12,458 bases of DNA, taken from assembly GCA_946629405.1 (NCBI GenBank), contig CAMOXW010000191.1, forward strand, positions 1 to 12,458, in the 5' to 3' direction. Origin of the DNA: an uncultured Ruminococcus sp. GTDB taxonomy: Bacteria > Bacillota_A > Clostridia > Oscillospirales > Ruminococcaceae. This document shows positions 2,623 to 12,458 of this stretch, in pieces; the stretch's first letter is position 1; each line of letters starts with the position of its first letter. A model generated the notes under the pieces. The model did no database searches. It worked only from the letters and a program-made list of their open reading frames with translations, and was not told the origin of the DNA. A program made the translations under genes and the position numbers.

Positions 2623-2910
2623 GATCATGAACCCGACTGCCCTGAGCTCATCGGGCGAAGCGATATAAGCCGCACAATAGAGCTTGCTCTCGGGCTCAAA
2701 CGGTGAAAGGTCTATCTCAGCACCGCGGTCGAGCACGCTCACAGAGGCGCTGCCGGAGTTAAGCGTGATACTTGCGGGAGCGGTGTCCTCACCGGTCATT
2801 CTCCGTCGGAATGCCGAGTAGGAATCAAGAAACATCCATAAGCCTGCCGAGAGGATAAGGTATACCACGACCGACCTTGCGGCGGTCTTTTTTTTATTCC
2901 TGTGCATCAT
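2602..2910 (-). CDS. Small single-pass membrane protein of unknown function, coupled to spoIIP
   Basis: I do not recognise this 102-residue protein. It has a very basic start (HRNKKK), one hydrophobic segment at about residues 13-30 (VVVYLILSAGLWMFLD), and then a polar domain of about 70 residues that would lie outside the membrane. Its ATG overlaps the spoIIP stop codon (ATGA), with GGAG inside the end of spoIIP, so translation is very likely coupled; a second ATG follows directly at 2907. Because it has no promoter of its own, it should be expressed with spoIIP and may act in sporulation, but that is inference from position. The 3' end overlaps the convergent neighbouring gene by 21 bases and no terminator is visible. 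Confidence 0.7.
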   Translation of the reverse strand: MMHRNKKKTAARSVVVYLILSAGLWMFLDSYSAFRRRMTGEDTAPASITLNSGSASVSVLDRGAEIDLSPFEPESKLYCAAYIASPDELRAVGFMISLCRYF

Positions 2911-4067
2911 TTCTCCTGTCCGGAACGCGGTGCGAAAGAGCGGAGGAGCTTCCCGAGCGAACGCCCGATGAGCTGACCGGAATACTGCACCTGTTCAAGC
3001 GTATTTCCGTGCGAGCCGACTTCAATGAGAAGGCTGCCGGTGGTGAGATCCTGGTTATATTTGCGGTAGTCAAAGAGTATGGGACGGGTAAGTCCCGGGG
3101 TATCGCCCTCGAGCTGCTGCTGGAGAGAGCTTGCAAAACGGAAGTTCTTCATATACTCCGGCATCCCGAGAGTGCCGTCGTCACAGCCGGAGATTATCAT
3201 TATCTGGGCAGCCTCCCTGCCGTTGACCTCAATGTAAGGCTGATAGACAACGCCCTCGCCGGATATCGCATCGCGGTGGATATCGAGGGCTACCTTTATC
3301 GAGGGGTACTGCTCAAGAATGGGAAGAATAGTGCTTCTGCTGCGGTCGTAAGCACCGTTGTAGGAGGGGTGGTCATGAATAGTCCGGACATGGATTACGC
3401 CTATGCCCTGCGCTTCAAGCTCAGCCTCGATAGCGTCGCCGACCATGACGACGTTTTTTGTCTCGTCGGTTGTACGGTAGTTGAAGGCCGTGTCAAAGTT
3501 TTCGCGGACGAACGGTTCAAAGCTCTCGCAGGTGTGAGTGTGATAGATAAGCACCTGAGGCTCAGAGGTATCACTTATGGTGAAGTCCGGCAGACAGCGG
3601 CTCTCGGCAAGAAGGGTCTCGTTGGGGACGGAGGTCTTGTTGTTGACCTGACCGCAGCGCTCCAAATTGAAAAACGTGCTGCCGGAGTATGGCTTATAGG
3701 TCGTCCGCACGACTGTGCCGCCGCTTCCCCATGAGGTAGGATAAGGCTTTTCTCCGGGGGCTGGGGAGGTCATTTCAAGCGGACTTACGAGCTTTACTCC
3801 GGGCGTAACGTCGGCTGATTCGTCTGAGATACCGTAGCCCTCTGAGAGGATGAGACTTCCGTAGAGGTCGTTTCCGGAGGTCATGCGGTCTGTGAGAGTG
3901 TCCTCGCCTGCGCCGGCTGACATAGCAGGGGAGCGGGCAGCTTTCAGCGTATCGTGGCTTCTCAGCCTGCCTATACCGCTTGCAGAGGCGGCGATCAGCG
4001 AGGGTGTGACAAGAAGTGCGGCTGCTCTTGCTGCTTTTGCAAGGAAATTTTTTTTACGGCGTTTCAT
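2907..4067 (-). CDS. spoIIP: Stage II sporulation protein P, peptidoglycan amidase/endopeptidase
   Basis: SpoIIP is the membrane-anchored cell-wall hydrolase that works with SpoIID and SpoIIM to thin septal peptidoglycan and drive engulfment of the forespore. The protein has 386 residues, close to the family norm. A basic start (MKRRKK) is followed by a hydrophobic segment at about residues 8-30, then a low-complexity linker. The zinc-hydrolase domain covers about 170-375: IYHTHTCESF (His176, Glu181), HDHPSYN (231-237), DIHRD (262-266) and LIEVGSHGN (Glu349, His353). I chose the ATG at 4067 because GAGGTGA lies 5-11 bases upstream and because the longer GTG start at 4100 would precede the predicted transcription start. 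The gene does not sit behind gpr, as it does in many spore formers, but next to fhs. Confidence 0.95.
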   Translation of the reverse strand: MKRRKKNFLAKAARAAALLVTPSLIAASASGIGRLRSHDTLKAARSPAMSAGAGEDTLTDRMTSGNDLYGSLILSEGYGISDESADVTPGVKLVSPLEMTSPAPGEKPYPTSWGSGGTVVRTTYKPYSGSTFFNLERCGQVNNKTSVPNETLLAESRCLPDFTISDTSEPQVLIYHTHTCESFEPFVRENFDTAFNYRTTDETKNVVMVGDAIEAELEAQGIGVIHVRTIHDHPSYNGAYDRSRSTILPILEQYPSIKVALDIHRDAISGEGVVYQPYIEVNGREAAQIMIISGCDDGTLGMPEYMKNFRFASSLQQQLEGDTPGLTRPILFDYRKYNQDLTTGSLLIEVGSHGNTLEQVQYSGQLIGRSLGKLLRSFAPRSGQEK

Positions 4068-4100
4068 TTTTCTCACCTCGTTATTATAACCTTTCTCCAC

Positions 4101-4193: not shown

Positions 4194-4222
4194 TTGCATT
4201 TTTACATCAGGTGTGGTAAAAT
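4194..4222 (+). promoter_or_regulatory. Sigma-A promoter of the fhs operon
   Basis: TTGCAT (4194-4199), a 17-base spacer and TAAAAT (4217-4222), with TGG immediately before the -10, form an extended -10 promoter. The 11 bases CTTGCATTTTT are identical to those at the rpmB promoter. Transcription would start near 4229, about 30 bases before the fhs start codon. Confidence 0.75.
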
Positions 4223-4259
4223 ATATAGTATACTTATTTTTATCTCCGGAGGTAATACT

Positions 4260-5939
4260 ATGTTATCTGATATCGAGATCGCTCAGAACGCGAAGATGAA
4301 AAAAATCACCGAAATTGCCGCTGGTCTCGGCATTGACGAGGACGACCTCGAGCCTTACGGTCACTATAAGGCAAAGCTCTCGGAAAAACTCTACTCCAAG
4401 ACCGCCTTCCGCGAGGACGGCAAGCTCATTCTTGTTACCGCTATCAACCCCACTCCCGCCGGCGAGGGAAAAACTACCGTCAGCGTAGGCCTTGCAGAGG
4501 CTATGGGAAAGATCGGCAAAAAGGCAGTTCTTGCGCTCCGTGAGCCCTCGCTCGGACCTGTTTTCGGTATAAAGGGCGGTGCTGCCGGCGGCGGCTACGC
4601 TCAGGTAGTGCCTATGGAGGACATAAACCTCCACTTCACAGGCGATATGCACGCTATAACTGCTGCAAACAACCTTCTCTGCGCCATGATAGACAATCAT
4701 CTCCAGCAGGGCAATGAGCTCGGTATCGACCCACGCAGGATAATGTTCAAGCGCTGCCTTGACATGAACGACCGCGCTCTCAGGAACGTTATCGTAGGCC
4801 TTGGCGGAAAAGCCAACGGTGTTCCCCGCGAGGACGGCTTCAATATCACTGTTGCCTCCGAGGTAATGGCAATACTGTGCCTTGCTACCGACATTGCGGA
4901 CCTGAAGGAAAGACTGGGCAATATCCTCGTTGCGTATACCTACAGCGGTGAGCCTGTTTTTGCAAGGCAGACCGGTGCGTGCGGAGCTATGACTGCCCTC
5001 CTGAAAGATGCTCTCAAGCCGAATCTCGTCCAGACCCTCGAGAACAATCCTGCCTTTATCCACGGCGGACCCTTCGCAAATATAGCACACGGCTGCAACT
5101 CCATACGCGCCACCAAGCTTGCATTGAAGCTCGGCGACTACTGCATCACTGAGGCAGGCTTCGGCTCAGACCTCGGTGCTGAGAAGTTCTTTGACATAAA
5201 GTGCAGATACGGCGGACTTACTCCAGCCTGTGTAGTTCTTGTTGCGACGATAAGAGCTCTCAAATACAACGGCGGAGTGCAGAAAAACGACCTTGCGAAG
5301 GAGAATATGTGGGCGCTCGAAAAGGGAATAGTCAACCTCAGAACCCACATCGAAAATATGCACAAGTATCACGTCCCGGTAGTCGTTGCGATAAACCGTT
5401 TCAGCACCGATACCTCTGCTGAGATAGAGTTCGTGCAGAATTTCTGCGCCGAAATGGGTGTTGAGGTCTCGATGTGCGAGGTATTCGCAAAAGGCGGCGA
5501 GGGCGGCAGGGAGCTTGCCGAAAAGGTATGTGAAACTATAAAGCTCTGCTCCGACAGTGCAAGCGGCTTCAAGCCTCTTTACAGTACCTCCCTCCCGATA
5601 AAGGACAAGGTGGAGATCATTGCGAAGGAGATATACCGCGCGGACGGCGTTGTCTATACCCCTCAGGCTGAAAAGGCAATAAAGGAGATAGAGGGCATAG
5701 GCTTCCGCGATATCCCGGTATGTATCGCAAAGACCCAGTATTCGCTCTCGGACAATCCGGCTCTGCTCGGAAAGCCGAAGAATTTCAGCATAACTGTCCG
5801 CGACGCAAGACTTTCCTCCGGTGCAGGCTTCGTGGTCATCTACACAGGCGATATCCTGACGATGCCGGGACTTCCGAAGAATCCTGCTGCGTTCAATATC
5901 GACTGCGACAACAACGGCTGTATAACCGGACTTTTCTGA
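4260..5939 (+). CDS. fhs: Formate--tetrahydrofolate ligase (10-formyl-THF synthetase)
   Basis: This is a cytoplasmic enzyme that joins formate to tetrahydrofolate using ATP and gives 10-formyl-THF, which feeds purine and formyl-Met synthesis and, in acetogens, the methyl branch of the Wood-Ljungdahl pathway. At 559 residues it has the full length of the bacterial monofunctional enzyme. The P-loop [10 protein letters not shown] is at about residues 64-73. It is followed by the highly conserved [21 protein letters not shown] block and by DINLHFTGD. The C-terminus ends GCITGLF, as in family members. The ATG at 4260 has CCGGAGG eight to fourteen bases upstream; a longer in-frame reading to 4194 would start in the promoter. 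It is the first gene of a plus-strand operon, and the next gene starts one base after its stop. Confidence 0.98.
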
Positions 5940-5940
5940 T

Positions 5941-6384
5941 ATGATAAGAATTATTACCCACTCCCCGGAGGAGACTATTGCCGCTGCTGAAAAGTTCGGC
6001 AGGCTCCTTCGTCCGGGAGATATGATAGCCTTCAAGGGAGGGCTCGGCGCGGGAAAGACCACCTTCACCCGCGGTATATCCATAGGTATGGGGCTCGGAG
6101 ACAACGTGACCTCCCCGACCTTTGCCCTTGTCAACGAGTACCGCGGCGATAAAATGACGCTCTACCATTTTGATATGTACCGCATAATGAACGAGGAAGG
6201 GCTGGAGTCAACAGGCTTTTACGACTATCCCTTTGATGAGAACGTTGCGGCTGTTGAGTGGTCGGAGAATATCGCTGACTTTCTCCCGGAGAATACCTTG
6301 TACATCACAATAAACAGACTCAGTGAGTCTGAGCGTGAGATAATTATTGAGGACGGTGACAGATTTGCTGATTCTTGGGATTGA
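5941..6384 (+). CDS. tsaE: tRNA t6A threonylcarbamoyladenosine biosynthesis ATPase TsaE
   Basis: TsaE is the ATPase of the TsaB-TsaD-TsaE complex, which puts threonylcarbamoyl on A37 of ANN-decoding tRNAs. The protein has 147 residues. The Walker A loop GGLGAGKTT is at 33-41. Other family blocks are TSPTFALVNEY (58-68), HFDMYR (76-81) and VEWSEN (105-110, with the conserved Trp107). The ATG is one base after the fhs stop and I see no convincing ribosome binding site, so translation probably depends on reinitiation after fhs. The end overlaps tsaB by 20 bases, which suggests both proteins are made together, as expected for complex partners. Confidence 0.95.
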   Translation: MIRIITHSPEETIAAAEKFGRLLRPGDMIAFKGGLGAGKTTFTRGISIGMGLGDNVTSPTFALVNEYRGDKMTLYHFDMYRIMNEEGLESTGFYDYPFDENVAAVEWSENIADFLPENTLYITINRLSESEREIIIEDGDRFADSWD

Positions 6385-7057
6385 CACATCCGGAAAGACC
6401 GCCTCTGCTGCACTTTTCGACACGGAAGCTGAGATATTCCTTGCCCAGAGCCTGCTCTACACCCAGAAAACACATTCGCAGGTCATAATGCCTATGGTAA
6501 GGGACATTATTTCACAGTCCGGAAAAACCATGGCGGATATAGGAGCGGTAGCAGTTGCAAATGGTCCTGGTTCTTATACGGGCCTCAGAATAGGCGTAGC
6601 GGCAGTGAAGGCACTTGGCTTCGGACTTGGTGTGAAATGCTGCGGTGTTTCTACACTTCTCGGACTTGCGTGCAATAATATCGCCTACAAGGGTATGATA
6701 TGTGCTGTTATGAAGGCAAGGGGCGATCTTGTTTACAATTGCCTTTATAGAAGCGACGGATATGCAGTTGAACCGGTCACTGCGGAGCGTATGATCTCGT
6801 GCGATGAACTTGCACAGGAACTTGCTATGAACGGCGAGGAAGTCCTGCTTTGCGGCGACGGGGCAGGGGACTTCTTTACTTCTTACAGTTCACCGATGCT
6901 CTTTATCGCACCGCCGTATGCAAGATTGCAGAACGCTTCCGGTGTTTGTCTTGCAGGAGCATCGCTGAAGCTTGTTGAGCCGGATGAGCTGGAGGTATCC
7001 TATCTACAGAAGGTCAAGGCTGAAAAGGACCTCGAGGACAGACAGAGGAAAAACTGA
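6365..7057 (+). CDS. tsaB: tRNA t6A biosynthesis protein TsaB, TTG start
   Basis: TsaB is the inactive ASKHA-fold partner that dimerises with TsaD, the enzyme that transfers the threonylcarbamoyl group in t6A synthesis. The protein has 230 residues. The N-terminal strand LILGIDTSGKTASAAL is the nucleotide-fold signature, and ANGPGSYTGLRIG (about 65-77) is the TsaB hallmark. There is no ATG near the start. I chose the TTG at 6365 because it gives the typical family N-terminus and has GGTGA five bases upstream; another TTG at 6347 would add six residues. Many Firmicutes follow tsaB with rimI and tsaD; here rpiB follows after 20 bases and tsaD must be elsewhere. Confidence 0.93.
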   Translation: MLILGIDTSGKTASAALFDTEAEIFLAQSLLYTQKTHSQVIMPMVRDIISQSGKTMADIGAVAVANGPGSYTGLRIGVAAVKALGFGLGVKCCGVSTLLGLACNNIAYKGMICAVMKARGDLVYNCLYRSDGYAVEPVTAERMISCDELAQELAMNGEEVLLCGDGAGDFFTSYSSPMLFIAPPYARLQNASGVCLAGASLKLVEPDELEVSYLQKVKAEKDLEDRQRKN

Positions 7058-7077: not shown

Positions 7078-7512
7078 ATGATAGCAATTGGCTGCGACCA
7101 CGCTGGAGTGGAAATGAAAAAGGCAGTTATCGCTGCGATGCAGGAAAAAGGCTTCAAATTCAATGATCTTGGTACTGATGGTGAGCCCTGCGACTATCCT
7201 GTGATAGCTGAGAAGGTATGTGCTGAGGTCACCTCAGGCAACTGTGAGAGAGGTATCCTTATCTGCGGAACAGGTATCGGTATGTCTATTGCCGCTAACA
7301 AGATAAAGGGCATAAGAGCCGCACTCTGCTCAGATTCATTCTCAACAAAGTTCACACGTCTTCACAATGATTCAAATATAATGTGTATGGGCGCAAGAGT
7401 TCTCGGAAACGGACTTGCCTGTGAACTTGCTGAGATATTCCTCACAACAGGCTTTGAGGGCGGACGTCATCAAAGACGTATCGACCTTATCACTGACCTT
7501 GAAAACAAGTGA
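7078..7512 (+). CDS. rpiB: Ribose-5-phosphate isomerase B
   Basis: RpiB interconverts ribose 5-phosphate and ribulose 5-phosphate in the non-oxidative pentose phosphate pathway. This supplies the PRPP used by the downstream upp product. The protein has 144 residues. The start MIAIGCDHAG contains the conserved Asp7-His8 pair. The loop ILICGTGIGMSIAANK holds Cys63, which aligns with the catalytic cysteine of E. coli RpiB, and HNDSN (96-100) with GAR (105-107) form the phosphate-binding end. A GGAG site lies nine bases before the ATG. Some LacA/LacB galactose-6-phosphate isomerases look alike, but those come as a pair in lactose operons, so RpiB is the better call. The stop overlaps the next start as GTGA. 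Confidence 0.93.
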   Translation: MIAIGCDHAGVEMKKAVIAAMQEKGFKFNDLGTDGEPCDYPVIAEKVCAEVTSGNCERGILICGTGIGMSIAANKIKGIRAALCSDSFSTKFTRLHNDSNIMCMGARVLGNGLACELAEIFLTTGFEGGRHQRRIDLITDLENK

Positions 7513-8078: not shown

Positions 8079-8146
8079 GCAGCCACATAAAAGGTTAGAT
8101 ACCCGAAAAGAATTATATGAAATAAAATATGAAAGGAGCTGTTGAT

Positions 8147-8776
8147 ATGGGAGAGTTACATATTATTGACCACCCACTTGTACAGCACAAGATCACACTT
8201 TTAAGAGATAAGAACACAGGCACAAAGGAATTCCGCGAGCTCGTTTCCGAGATAGCAATGTTCATCTGCTATGAGGCTACACGCGACCTTCCGCTTAAAG
8301 AGATCGAAATGGAGACACCTCTTGAAGTTGCAAAGTCTAAGATCATCTCCGGAAGAAAGCTCGCTTTCATCCCGATACTCCGCGCGGGTCTTGGCATGGT
8401 AGACGGCGTGACACAGCTCGTTCCTGCCGCTAAGATAGGCCATATCGGAATATTCCGTGATCCTGTGACACAGGAACCTGTGAAGTATTATTCAAAGATG
8501 CCTGAGGACATTTCCGAGCGTGATGCTATCATCGTTGACCCGATGCTTGCTACGGGAAATTCGGCAGTTGCTGCTATTACCGAGCTGAAAAGTCTTGGCG
8601 TCAAGCACATCAAGTTCATGTGCATAATCTGTTCTCCCGAGGGCGTTGAGGCTATCAGGACCACTCATCCGGATGTCGAGATATACGCCGGCGTTATGGA
8701 TAAGGGGCTCAACGAGGACAAGTACATCATACCCGGTGTAGGCGATGCCGGCGACCGTATCTTCGGTACAAAGTAA
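8147..8776 (+). CDS. upp: Uracil phosphoribosyltransferase
   Basis: This enzyme converts uracil and PRPP to UMP plus pyrophosphate, the key step of uracil salvage. The 209-residue length is standard. [12 protein letters not shown] (77-88) carries the conserved arginine loop, [10 protein letters not shown] (130-139) is the PRPP-binding loop, and [15 protein letters not shown] at the C-terminus (195-209) binds uracil. The start ATG at 8147 has GGAG at 8133-8136, ten bases upstream; an ATG at 8129 would lie upstream of the GGAG and lacks its own site. upp closely follows rpiB in other Clostridia too, and here an acetyltransferase gene separates them. The gene is followed by a strong terminator at 8869. 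Confidence 0.97.
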
Positions 8777-8868: not shown

Positions 8869-8898
8869 TGCCGCTGTTATAACAGCGGCAGTTTTTTA
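8869..8898 (+). terminator. Strong Rho-independent terminator after upp
   Basis: A perfect 22-base palindrome (8869-8890, arms TGCCGCTGT and ACAGCGGCA) forms a stem of at least nine bp around TATA. A G and six T residues follow. On the other strand the palindrome is followed by AATTTTTA, so it could work in both directions. It separates the fhs-upp operon from the two-component operon. Confidence 0.9.
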
Positions 8899-8949: not shown

Positions 8950-8989
8950 TTTGCAAAAGTTTTGCAAAATTTTTGCGGAAGGTTTGACA
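8950..8989 (+). promoter_or_regulatory. Predicted PhoB-type response regulator binding box, four 11-bp-phased repeats
   Basis: TTTGCAA (8950), TTTGCAA (8961), TTTGCGG (8972) and TTTGACA (8983) begin exactly 11 bases apart, with four-base spacers AAGT, AATT and AAGG. A seven-base unit plus a four-base spacer, repeated in tandem, is the arrangement of boxes bound by PhoB/OmpR regulators. The last repeat contains the -35 TTGACA. It probably binds the regulator encoded next to it, which would make the operon self-regulated. Confidence 0.55.
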
Positions 8990-9012
8990 GAGTTTCTTTT
9001 TGCTGATACAAT
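8984..9012 (+). promoter_or_regulatory. Promoter of the two-component operon
   Basis: A perfect TTGACA (8984-8989) is followed by 17 bases and TACAAT (9007-9012), preceded by TGA (extended -10). Transcription would begin near 9019. GGGAGG lies at 9022-9027, so the leader is very short. The -35 overlaps the last unit of the repeat box. Confidence 0.85.
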
Positions 9013-9036: not shown

Positions 9037-9702
9037 ATGATAAATATACTGATAATTGAGGACGATGAGAACATCGCTAAAATGATAAAAGCTACCCTTG
9101 CGATAGTCGGCTATGAAGGCAACTGCCGTTATGATGGGACAAGCGGAGCTGATGAGGCTTTGCGGGGGATATACGACCTTATACTTCTGGACGTCATGCT
9201 GCCCGGGATGAGCGGCTTTGAGGTCATGGACAGGATAAAGGACTGCGGCACTCCGGTAATATTTCTCACTGCCATGCAGGACGTCACCGATAAGGTGCGG
9301 GGACTGCGGCTTGGTGCAGAGGACTATATCGTCAAGCCCTTTGAAGCACTTGAGCTGCTTGCGCGTATCGACGTCGTGCTGCGCCGCTCCAACAAGACCG
9401 CTGATGTTATCACATACGGAGCTATTACCGTCGATACTTCGCGGCATATCGTTACAAACGGCGGAGAGACAGTTCAGCTTACCCCAAAGGAATATGACGT
9501 GATCGTTTACTTTCTCCAGCATCAGGACATAGCCGTTTCGCGTGAAAGGCTGCTTTCAAGCATCTGGGGCTACGAATTTGAGGGCGAGAGCAGAACTGTT
9601 GATATCCACGTCCAGCAGGTGCGCCGAAAGCTCGGGCTGAAGGACAGGCTCGTGACCATTCCGAAGCTCGGATACCGCCTTGAAAGTCAGGACAGCCAAT
9701 GA
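9037..9702 (+). CDS. OmpR/PhoB-family response regulator
   Basis: This is a DNA-binding transcription factor of 221 residues controlled by phosphorylation. The receiver domain (about 1-115) has the acidic pair Glu8/Asp9/Asp10, the phospho-acceptor Asp52 in LLDVMLPGMSG, Thr78 in IFLTA and Lys100 in VKPFE. The C-terminal winged-helix domain (about 125-218) shows LTPKEYDVIVYFLQHQ, VSRERLLSSIWGYEF and the recognition part SRTVDIHVQQVRRKL, ending in the wing IPKLGYRLE. GGGAGG sits about ten bases before the ATG. The stop overlaps the kinase start (ATGA), so the kinase is its cognate partner. It belongs to the WalR/PhoB/VanR-like set, but I cannot name an ortholog. Its target sites may include the repeat box before its own promoter. 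Confidence 0.96.
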   Translation: MINILIIEDDENIAKMIKATLAIVGYEGNCRYDGTSGADEALRGIYDLILLDVMLPGMSGFEVMDRIKDCGTPVIFLTAMQDVTDKVRGLRLGAEDYIVKPFEALELLARIDVVLRRSNKTADVITYGAITVDTSRHIVTNGGETVQLTPKEYDVIVYFLQHQDIAVSRERLLSSIWGYEFEGESRTVDIHVQQVRRKLGLKDRLVTIPKLGYRLESQDSQ

Positions 9703-11144
9703 AGCTCTGGCAGAGGATATTTCTGAGCTCGCTGTGCCTTATCATACTTGTAGTTAACGTTATTTCCATAACGCTGCTCAACAACAGCCACCGGCTCATT
9801 CTTGAACGGGAGCAGTCCCACGCGATAAGTGAGTATGAATATTTTGCCGCATCCTTCGCAAATTCAGCCGTCTATGAACGCCTCCGCTCGGGCAAGCTCC
9901 TGCTCGGGGATGAGAGTATAAAAACCATCGCTGAGGATATCGTTCGCAGCGGTGTTCAGGGAAAGTCCGCTGCTGCAATTTACAGCGGAAGCAGGCAGCT
10001 CATAGCCCGCAGCAAGCTCCCTGAACTGTTTACCCTTGATGAATTCAACAGATATATTGAAGTGCTGAAATTTTCCGGAGATGAGTACAAGCTCCGTGTA
10101 TTTGAGAGCGGGAGCACCCACTACATGACAGTCTGCTCAAAGCTTACGGTAGAGGAAAAGCCCTTCATCATAGTCCGGGTCTCGGATGTTTCGGAGATAT
10201 ACACCCTCCGCAGCCGTCAGAGGGACTTTGTGCGGCGGGTCGGAATGGTCTCGGCGGGGGCGGTCTCGCTGATACTGCTCGTCACAGTGATGCTGCTTCT
10301 TCGCCCGCTTAGCCGGCTGAATATGTACACAAAGGCGATCGCGGCAGGCGATTACAAGCTCCGGATACGCCAGCGCGGAAGCCGGGAATTCCGCGAGCTT
10401 GCGGGAAATATGAACGTTATGGCTGAGGCAGTCCAGTCCCACGCGGCACGTCTTGAAAAGACCGCAGAGGACAGACAGGTATTCATCGCAAATCTTGCAC
10501 ATGAGATGAAAACTCCCCTAACCTCGATACTCGGCTTTGCCGACCTGCTCAAGATCAAAAAGAACGTTTCCGACAAGGAGCGCGTTGAGTATGCCGGGGT
10601 CATAGTTGACGAAACACGCCGTCTGAGGTCGCTTTCCGGCAAGCTTATGGAGCTGATCTCGCTCGGGGGCACTGAGACTGAAAAGAAGCCTGTGAGCCTC
10701 CCTGACATGATAAGGGATACCGAGACCTCACTTGCTCCGATACTCCAGAAAAGCTCAGTTACTCTGAAATGCACCTGCGAGGATATCACGCTTTCCGCTG
10801 ACGAGGAGCTGTTCAAGTCCCTGCTTTACAACATCATCGAGAACGCTGTCAAGGCATCGGCTATCGGGCAGGAGATAGAGCTTTCAGCCGCTATGAAGGA
10901 CGGCAGCGCAGTCATTGCTGTCACCGACCACGGCATCGGAATGAGCCCTGAGGACACAGGAAAGGTCTTTGAGCCGTTTTACATGGTCGATAAGTCACGC
11001 AGCAGGAAAGCGGGCGGAGCAGGCCTCGGACTTGCGCTCTGCGTAAGGATAGCGAGCCTTCACAATGCAGTGCTCAGTCTTGAAAGCGAGCAGGGCAAGG
11101 GCACAACGGTCTATATCACGATCTCCGGGGAGGAATGTCTGTGA
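9699..11144 (+). CDS. Membrane sensor histidine kinase
   Basis: The protein has 481 residues and pairs with the upstream response regulator, with its ATG overlapping that gene's stop. TM1 is at about residues 7-28 and TM2 at about 183-203, bounding an extracytoplasmic sensor region of about 150 residues with no domain I recognise. A HAMP linker (about 203-255) follows. Next are the H box LAHEMKTPLTS with phospho-acceptor His268, the N box NIIENAVKAS (Asn382), the G1 box TDHGIGM (Asp410), the F box FEPFY (424-428) and the G2 box GGAGLGLAL (439-447). No PAS domain is seen, unlike in WalK. All catalytic residues are present. The downstream membrane-anchored proteins may modulate it. Confidence 0.96.
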   Translation: MKLWQRIFLSSLCLIILVVNVISITLLNNSHRLILEREQSHAISEYEYFAASFANSAVYERLRSGKLLLGDESIKTIAEDIVRSGVQGKSAAAIYSGSRQLIARSKLPELFTLDEFNRYIEVLKFSGDEYKLRVFESGSTHYMTVCSKLTVEEKPFIIVRVSDVSEIYTLRSRQRDFVRRVGMVSAGAVSLILLVTVMLLLRPLSRLNMYTKAIAAGDYKLRIRQRGSREFRELAGNMNVMAEAVQSHAARLEKTAEDRQVFIANLAHEMKTPLTSILGFADLLKIKKNVSDKERVEYAGVIVDETRRLRSLSGKLMELISLGGTETEKKPVSLPDMIRDTETSLAPILQKSSVTLKCTCEDITLSADEELFKSLLYNIIENAVKASAIGQEIELSAAMKDGSAVIAVTDHGIGMSPEDTGKVFEPFYMVDKSRSRKAGGAGLGLALCVRIASLHNAVLSLESEQGKGTTVYITISGEECL

Positions 11145-12079
11145 AGCATACAATAGCGTTTATACTTCTGCTCGGGGCAGTTCTTGGGGCAGGCTACTAC
11201 AGCGTTGACTTCTCGGCACTGATATACGGCAGTTCAGCCGAAAGTGCGAGCATAGCGCGAAGCTCAGCCGAAAGCCGGGCGGTATATATCAATTCAGGCG
11301 AAAATGCAGGCTTCGATCCCATGAGGGTGCTCTCCGGTGAAAATCAGCCGAATCGTCCTAAGGAATATGATCAGGAGCGGCAGATCTGCGCGGGTCTGGC
11401 ACGGTGTCTGAGCCTTGCTTCGCCGGAAACTGAGATCACGGCGGATTACATTGAATCTCTCGGATATGCTGTCTACCTCAGCACGAACGGATATTTTCAC
11501 ATTGACCGTTTCCACTATAGAAGCAGATCAGGCAGGCTCTTGCACCTTGAGCTGATAGTTTCTCAGCACGATTTCCGGGTGATATACATACGTTTCGTCC
11601 CGGACGAGGCATTCGAGGAGGGTGATCCTGACCGTGCGCTCAGGCTTGCGGAGGAATTCACAAGGGATATTGCTTCCCCCGACCTTGTACGCGAGCTTGA
11701 GGATCTCAACTCAAATCTGAGTGCGTCCTTGACCTTTGAGGAGAGAAGCTCCGGCAATTCCGGAGCTGAAGGCTTCTCCGACGGCTTCAGCGAGCTTTCA
11801 CGGGAGGCGCTGGAGATGCTTGGCGTCACATCGCCCTATTCCCGTTTCTGGTACAACGCCCTGCTTGTTTCGCTTCTGCACAATACCGGCGCTGAGCTGG
11901 ACTGCATATCCTACATTGCCGAGACAGTTTTCGGCGGAATCACTCCCGGTGTGCCGGAATATACCGTATACAAGGGCAGCCTGTACCAGTATCTCCCGAT
12001 TTCCGGCAGCACGCTGATAACACTTTACAACATTGACGGCGGCTTTGTCGAGGGCTTCTTCGCGCCGCCAACAAGATAG
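11141..12079 (+). CDS. Membrane-anchored secreted protein of unknown family, paralog 1
   Basis: I do not recognise this 312-residue protein. It has a basic, hydrophobic start (MKHTIAFILLLGAVLGAGYY) that looks like an uncleaved signal anchor, so the rest should be outside the cell. No Cys lies at a lipobox position. Residues 31-45 contain two copies of SSAES. The body is mixed, with beta-type strands near YAVYLSTNGYFHIDRFHYRSR and LLHLELIVSQHDFRVIYIRF. The GTG at 11141 is chosen because GGGGAGG ends seven bases upstream and the GTG overlaps the kinase stop; an ATG at 11135 is too close to the site. The N-terminal 62 residues align in register with the next gene product. By position it likely serves the kinase, for example as an accessory sensor; that is inference. 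Confidence 0.8.
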   Translation: MKHTIAFILLLGAVLGAGYYSVDFSALIYGSSAESASIARSSAESRAVYINSGENAGFDPMRVLSGENQPNRPKEYDQERQICAGLARCLSLASPETEITADYIESLGYAVYLSTNGYFHIDRFHYRSRSGRLLHLELIVSQHDFRVIYIRFVPDEAFEEGDPDRALRLAEEFTRDIASPDLVRELEDLNSNLSASLTFEERSSGNSGAEGFSDGFSELSREALEMLGVTSPYSRFWYNALLVSLLHNTGAELDCISYIAETVFGGITPGVPEYTVYKGSLYQYLPISGSTLITLYNIDGGFVEGFFAPPTR

Positions 12080-12090
12080 GAGCTGAAAGC

Positions 12091-12458
12091 TTGAAGAATA
12101 CTATCGTATTTGTTATCCTGCTTGCAGCGGTTGCCGCGGGAGGTTTTTTCGGAACGAACGCAGCGCTTGCAAGGTTCACGGAGGAGAACGCAGTCCTGAC
12201 CGATATACGGCGGGATTCTGCTGATACTGCGGCTGTCTATATATCCCCTGAGCCTGCCGCAGCCATTGACCCGATGTCCGTGCTTGAGGAGCCGCTCGTC
12301 CTGAGCTGCAATGTCGTTCCGGAGGCGAGACTCGGCGGATGCAGCTTTGCGGAGTTCATGTTCGTGACTTTAAAGCAGCTCAGCCGCTATTCGTCCGCAA
12401 CAGCCTTCGCATCGCCTGTGAGTGCAGATTTCACCAGGCTTGTCCGCACCGACAGACA
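12091..12458 (+). CDS. Membrane-anchored secreted protein of unknown family, paralog 2 (partial, runs off window)
   Basis: Only the first 122 codons are visible and there is no stop. The start is TTG at 12091, eight bases after AGGAG (12078-12082), and eleven bases after the previous gene. The N-terminus MKNTIVFVILLAAVAAGGFF is a signal anchor like that of paralog 1 (MKHTIAFILLLGAVLGAGYY). The later blocks AVYI and DPMxVL occur at almost the same positions (48-51 and 60-65 here, 47-50 and 59-64 in paralog 1). Beyond about residue 70 the similarity is weak. It is probably co-transcribed with the two-component genes. Family and function are unknown. Confidence 0.75.
   Translation, partial: MKNTIVFVILLAAVAAGGFFGTNAALARFTEENAVLTDIRRDSADTAAVYISPEPAAAIDPMSVLEEPLVLSCNVVPEARLGGCSFAEFMFVTLKQLSRYSSATAFASPVSADFTRLVRTDR

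Follow-up and report, generated by a model that had tools for sequence, protein, structure and literature searches.

The four genes that fill the final 3.4 kb of the window, a stretch of 12,458 nucleotides from an uncultured Ruminococcus sp. (contig CAMOXW010000191.1), raise the question of whether an operon that looks like WalRK-YycH-YycI must also belong to that family. On the forward strand, the open reading frame listing shows a response regulator, a sensor histidine kinase and two further proteins, here called A and B, and the initial annotation had compared their architecture with that of WalRK-YycH-YycI while allowing for an independent or very divergent kinase-accessory system. The latter description fits. 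The operon most likely encodes a dedicated system of kinase and accessories, the accessory proteins being DUF6836-like; the WalRK analogy is useful, but the protein family is a different one.

The regulator (9037..9702, 221 residues) is of the OmpR type, with Pfam matches to Response_reg (E 3.9e-23) and Trans_reg_C (E 3.1e-21), and its gene overlaps that of the kinase (9699..11144, 481 residues) by four bases (ATGA). According to the Pfam domains and an alignment of relatives, the kinase comprises a first transmembrane segment (TM1), an outer region of about 150 residues, a second transmembrane segment (TM2; both segments assigned by sight), HAMP (residues 197-246), HisKA (259-319) and HATPase_c (368-475). 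The 12 residues between HAMP and HisKA leave no room for a cytoplasmic PAS domain, and the kinase indeed lacks the one found in WalK, as had been pointed out. The gene of A extends to 12079 and most likely starts at the GTG at 11141, overlapping the kinase gene by four bases (GTGA). An in-frame ATG at 11135, which would give an overlap of ten bases, is also possible, but GGAGGA abuts this ATG and lies six bases 5′ of the GTG, and the database homologs of A open with MKHT. B (12091..12458) begins with a TTG 11 bases on from the end of A and is cut by the window end at codon 122. From 9037 to 12458 the coordinates thus agree with the annotated spacing, the four genes overlapping or being at most 11 bases apart.

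The last two genes were correctly recognized as paralogs: A and B share 38% identity across 65 residues (E 3e-10), and those of relatives are homologous along their full length. As the window holds just 122 codons of B, a 368-residue near-match, P0022, served as its full-length proxy; it comes from a set of 5.8 billion proteins in which A as a query found six proteins and a profile built from B sequences retrieved 29, A and B alike. Neither A nor B has any family above the cut-off in Pfam and NCBIfam, an unrelated enzyme family included. Their nearest relative is the DUF6836 family of CLOLEP_02462 from Clostridium leptum (PF20762; PDB 4PW1). The A/B profile aligns with the DUF6836/4PW1 profile over 260 columns (hhalign 96.8%, controls at most 0.6%), a PDB profile search matches 4PW1 at E 3.4e-4, and the predicted fold of A/B is that of 4PW1, followed by the C-terminal domain of YpeB as the second structural match of the models. 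The two families share an N-terminal hydrophobic segment, two repeated halves and a conserved C-terminal Y-x-IY...IY...GF stretch, and the profile and fold matches cover the body of the proteins. The identity is, however, 12-14%, and A/B lie under the Pfam detection of DUF6836; since PF20762 gave zero matches among 16 aligned family members at E up to 10, A/B are remote relatives rather than Pfam members of DUF6836. The same model found nothing across 295 genomes of the order, where the control genomes were silent too, which makes that result uninformative about absence. Other low-scoring PDB matches (CsgF, the MccC family, concanavalin B, a designed binder at E 0.037 and others) were judged to be due to chance. 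A itself has a charged start and a predicted N-terminal hydrophobic helix at residues 4-30, with no Cys near the helix end, followed by two PepSY-like domains of the DUF6836-like kind. By sight of this helix, A and B are probably membrane-anchored outer proteins.

The connection of these proteins to the kinase is complete in the set searched. A first genome scan gave four Ruminococcus loci (L001-L004), all with the order regulator-kinase-A-B, and the search was extended to 125 genomes of the genus of G001, the Ruminococcus flavefaciens metagenome-assembled genome behind L001; these are genomes of unstated completeness, and related species among them are not independent observations. The A/B profile was found in 34 of these genomes and a profile of the kinase sensor half in the same 34, the other 91 having neither at these cut-offs. 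In all 34 the regulator, the kinase and A are contiguous and in that order, which makes the arrangement more than chance, and no unlinked copy was detected in the 125 genomes at E 0.001. A lack of co-occurrence, which the initial annotation would have taken as a refutation, was thus not seen in this set. Across 396 genomes of the family, the A/B profile matched in 12 at E 0.01, in three of them strongly (G001, G010 and G121, all known before) and in nine partially (E 1.3e-4 to 0.0094), several of the latter matches lying inside much longer open frames. The kinases of G047 and G050 (L062, L063) carry about 20 additional sensor-half residues relative to the window kinase, and the sensor half of G050 matched the profile in two pieces.

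B is present in 13 of the 34 genomes, whereas 18 have A alone with DNA present downstream (for G066, G075, G080, G086 and G098 judged from loci L022, L018, L024, L019 and L015) and for three (G022, G096 and G108) the contig is too short downstream to rule B out. All 14 B sequences form one clade (support 100/100) in a 49-protein tree, and every single-copy protein falls on the A side, although several long branches within A and B leave the finer branching order unsure. In the kinase tree the 14 pair-bearing entries fall in a group of 15 together with G121, which has A only (support 83/59). Taken together, the two trees are most simply explained by one duplication and perhaps one loss, so that B would have arisen once, by local duplication. 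A and B are fast-changing proteins. In A, the mean pairwise identity is 48% in the N-terminal helix and 14-31% in the other parts (31 of 35 proteins, four truncated ones of under 300 residues being omitted), and the kinase has 78% in TM1, 66% in TM2, 44% in the outer region, 78% in HAMP and 74% in the catalytic part. The better-kept helix of A and the transmembrane segments of the kinase are as expected if the partners meet inside the membrane.

Upstream of the operon, a candidate operator and a promoter can be distinguished. The operon starts beyond a terminator-like hairpin with a T run that follows upp (8870..8898, by sight), and a sigma-A-type promoter is visible at 8984..9012 (TTGACA at 8984-8989, a 17-bp spacer and TACAAT at 9007-9012), similar ones being visible by sight in relatives. 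Just 5′ of it lies an 11-bp direct repeat, TTTGCAAAAGTTTTGCAAAATTTTTGCGG, with the box TGCAAA-N4-TTGCAAA at 8952..8968 and a weaker third half-site to 8979; three overlapping matches with at most one mismatch on both strands compare with 0.02 expected. OmpR-type regulators use direct repeats of this 11-bp kind. In the window, as in 27 of the 34 genomes, the exact box lies no more than 250 bp ahead of the regulator gene. It lies at 372 bp in G104 and 750 bp in G066, and was absent upstream of the gene in G077 and G108 (900 bp searched) and G098 (403 bp); G029 and G096 offered just 133 and 67 bp of upstream DNA. In the loci of G066 and G104 (L131, L136) apparently inserted, repeat-rich DNA separates the distant box and promoter from the regulator gene.

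Genome-wide, the exact box occurs 30 times in 14 of the system-bearing genomes (reversed-pattern control, 1) and 72 times in the other 20 (control, 0), compared with seven times in 20 of the 91 system-free genomes (control, 1), a few near-palindromic sites being counted on both strands. The pattern was derived from the operon of the system itself, which 31 of the 102 sites precede as read from their places; the remaining 71 amount to 2.1 per system genome versus 0.35 per genome without it. Among 87 distinct sites, de-duplicated by flanking sequence such that orthologous promoters of related species remain, the best −35 element lies 5 bp (30 sites), 16 bp (25) or 15 bp (18) downstream, two sites having other distances and 12 no good promoter.

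Targets were sought for the 80 distinct sites with flanking DNA available, de-duplicated in the same way and including that of the window. A target counts as assigned when the same strand carries, no more than 2.5 kb downstream, a homolog of one of the chosen representatives, which does not prove that it is the first gene after the box. On this basis the box precedes the present operon at 24 sites, an ATP-binding cassette (ABC) permease operon at 12 (with two boxes in several genomes), two kinds of long lipoprotein, of which one has a solute-binding domain, at eight, an anchored GH25 muramidase at five and a choline-binding protein with a transglutaminase-like domain at another five. A smaller solute-binding-like lipoprotein, a metallophosphoesterase, and a gene followed by that of a C39-like peptidase account for two sites each, five sites precede single other genes and 15 have no assigned target. 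The bias of these targets, predicted from promoter sequence, to surface proteins fits a role in the envelope; the system may alternatively serve sugar uptake. In single-accessory genomes, two TTGCAAA boxes 226-239 bp apart, each followed by a promoter-like sequence, were seen before an ABC permease or solute-binding-lipoprotein operon in L144 (at 971 and 1199, numbered along the turned locus), L145 (at 763 and 1002), L153 and L116.

We consider it probable that the operon forms a dedicated two-component system with A, joined in one subclade by B, as a single-pass outer accessory tuning the kinase; the regulator would activate the operon itself and a group of envelope genes. The N-terminal helix would set the two-domain PepSY-like body beside the small outer sensor region of the kinase, where A and B most likely would contact it both within the membrane and outside, setting its balance between kinase and phosphatase activity in response to the envelope state, and the regulator would act through the 11-bp repeats just 5′ of the −35 element. 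Computation shows the gene order, the linkage, the homology to DUF6836/4PW1, the predicted fold, the single origin of B and the shared box; we infer from these the binding of A/B to the kinase, the sign of regulation, the signal, the topology, binding of the box by the regulator and the step from linkage to kinase control. Contact within the membrane is the known mode of YycH and YycI, whose transmembrane segments suffice for their contact and which, with WalK, make up a ternary complex (PMC5013275); contacts of WalH with WalK and with WalI, and extracellular bodies, are also reported (PMC4801191). PepSY genes are stated to neighbour two-component genes at over 60 times the frequency expected by chance, and DbfQ to interact with the sensory domain of its kinase (PMC12714742). 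In DbfQRS of Vibrio cholerae and beside BqsRS of Pseudomonas aeruginosa, which has two, a PepSY-type outer partner is encoded with the kinase and regulator (PMC12714742), as are the PepSY-like, probably outer proteins A and B here. DbfQ is, however, a small secreted one-domain protein encoded upstream, whereas A and B are two-domain, probably anchored and encoded downstream, and the Pfam PepSY model does not recognize them. A and B might either activate or inhibit, given that reports on YycHI differ in sign: in B. subtilis they are described as negative regulators (PMC7299342), in S. aureus PMC5013275 describes them as activators, and PMC4801191 reports S. aureus mutants with increased atlA expression. 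Some observations limit this reading: hydrophobic helices look alike through their narrow composition anyway, HAMP and the catalytic part of the kinase are also well kept, and operon position alone does not show feedback.

That last point leads to the most serious competitor, in which the system produces A and B as outputs, by autoregulated co-transcription, and these envelope proteins do not act on the kinase. Many other predicted targets likewise look secreted or anchored, yet the one-to-one linkage without unlinked copies, the overlap of the kinase stop with the start of A in 34 of 34 genomes, the conserved transmembrane helix and the precedents of such partners acting on a kinase make this explanation unlikely. 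It is more doubtful still that the partner of A and B is another envelope enzyme that they inhibit or hold, in the manner of YpeB with SleB, and that the kinase is only a neighbour. The structural match to the C-terminal domain of YpeB and the box before the muramidase gene would suit such a function, but A is linked to the kinase in every genome that has it, and no common hydrolase gene was seen beside A or B in an unsystematic inspection of the listed loci. YpeB is a spore germination protein with no known link to a kinase. Propeptide PepSY regions are nevertheless described as protease inhibitors, and YpeB as controlling SleB (PMC4282423).

The same paper describes YycI as a PepSY protein, referring to BqsP/BqsQ as well, and A/B may accordingly share a fold class with the WalRK accessories. 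Like WalRK-YycHI of Bacilli, the operon combines a regulator, a kinase and two outer proteins, anchored as judged by sight, in overlapping or abutting genes, and its predicted targets include a cell-wall hydrolase. To this extent the proposed architecture holds; the pair is not universal, though, with a single accessory gene in the 18 relatives mentioned, and it derives here from one local duplication. Kinship of A/B to YycH/YycI found no support. Neither PF09648 (YycI) nor PF07435 (YycH) matches in Pfam; hhalign gives 0.1% with YycI and, with YycH, 4.5% (E 0.009) over 33 columns of the N-terminal helix only, whereas YycI and YycH recognize each other at 98.6% in a positive control. YycI was detected in none of the 125 genomes, and the absence of YycI/YycH chains from the listed structure-search matches of A and B excludes nothing by itself. 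The regulator reaches 155.6 bits with the WalR/YycF model NF040534 (cut-off 340) and the kinase 170.1 bits with that of WalK (cut-off 725); none of the best 25 of 104 NCBIfam matches of the regulator attains its cut-off, and the best 25 of the kinase are all far under theirs. The kinase also lacks the PAS domain, and no WalJ is seen after B in three readable relatives (L001-L003), where metK follows in convergent orientation, either at once or after one further gene; the L004 sequence runs out shortly past B. That A and B are genuine though highly divergent YycH/YycI proteins, and the operon WalRK, is thus the least probable of these explanations, if by little.

A further, tentative proposal, to which we give somewhat less than even chances, is that, in a part of Ruminococcus in which YycI went undetected, an independent system gained PepSY-fold outer regulators from DUF6836 stock and later duplicated them. 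It would thereby have converged on the design of WalRK-YycHI, and TTGCAAA repeats would define its envelope-centred regulon of muramidase, choline-binding protein, lipoproteins and ABC transporter. Control of a sensor kinase would then be the first function for DUF6836-type proteins, the solved but functionally unexplained structure 4PW1 being linked to sensor kinases through relatives with complete linkage in the set searched. If so, PepSY-fold outer proteins would have been recruited as kinase partners more than once, and censuses relying on PepSY domain models would overlook some of them. The operator and target list are testable, and genomes with one and with two accessories offer a natural comparison. 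The open literature searched had no paper on DUF6836 and none combining Ruminococcus, YycH and two-component systems; 4PW1 turns up in one structure-prediction paper.

The surroundings of the operon vary. Upstream in the window lie, by sight, genes for a site-2-protease-like protein (3-638), rpmB (about 845-1033), a polysaccharide deacetylase-like protein (1082-2002), a SpoIIP-like protein (2907-4100), formate-tetrahydrofolate ligase (4194-5939), TsaE and TsaB (5941-7057) and an RpiB-like protein (7078-7512), followed by the Pfam-scanned upp (8129-8776); Rfam gave no match within the window at gathering cut-offs. The site-2-protease-like gene and rpmB, about 8 kb upstream of the operon here, lie directly beyond A in L034 (2575-3706), which indicates that the neighbourhood has been reshuffled around the operon. 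In the place of upp, L001 has two tandem RadC-like JAB-domain genes just 5′ of the operon (4328-5746, Pfam), and similar genes occupy this place by sight in L002, L003 and L004. A second kinase-regulator pair is seen in L003 a few kb past the operon, beyond metK (11886-13980), and L001 has a kinase resembling that of this pair at 12290-13720, both by sight.
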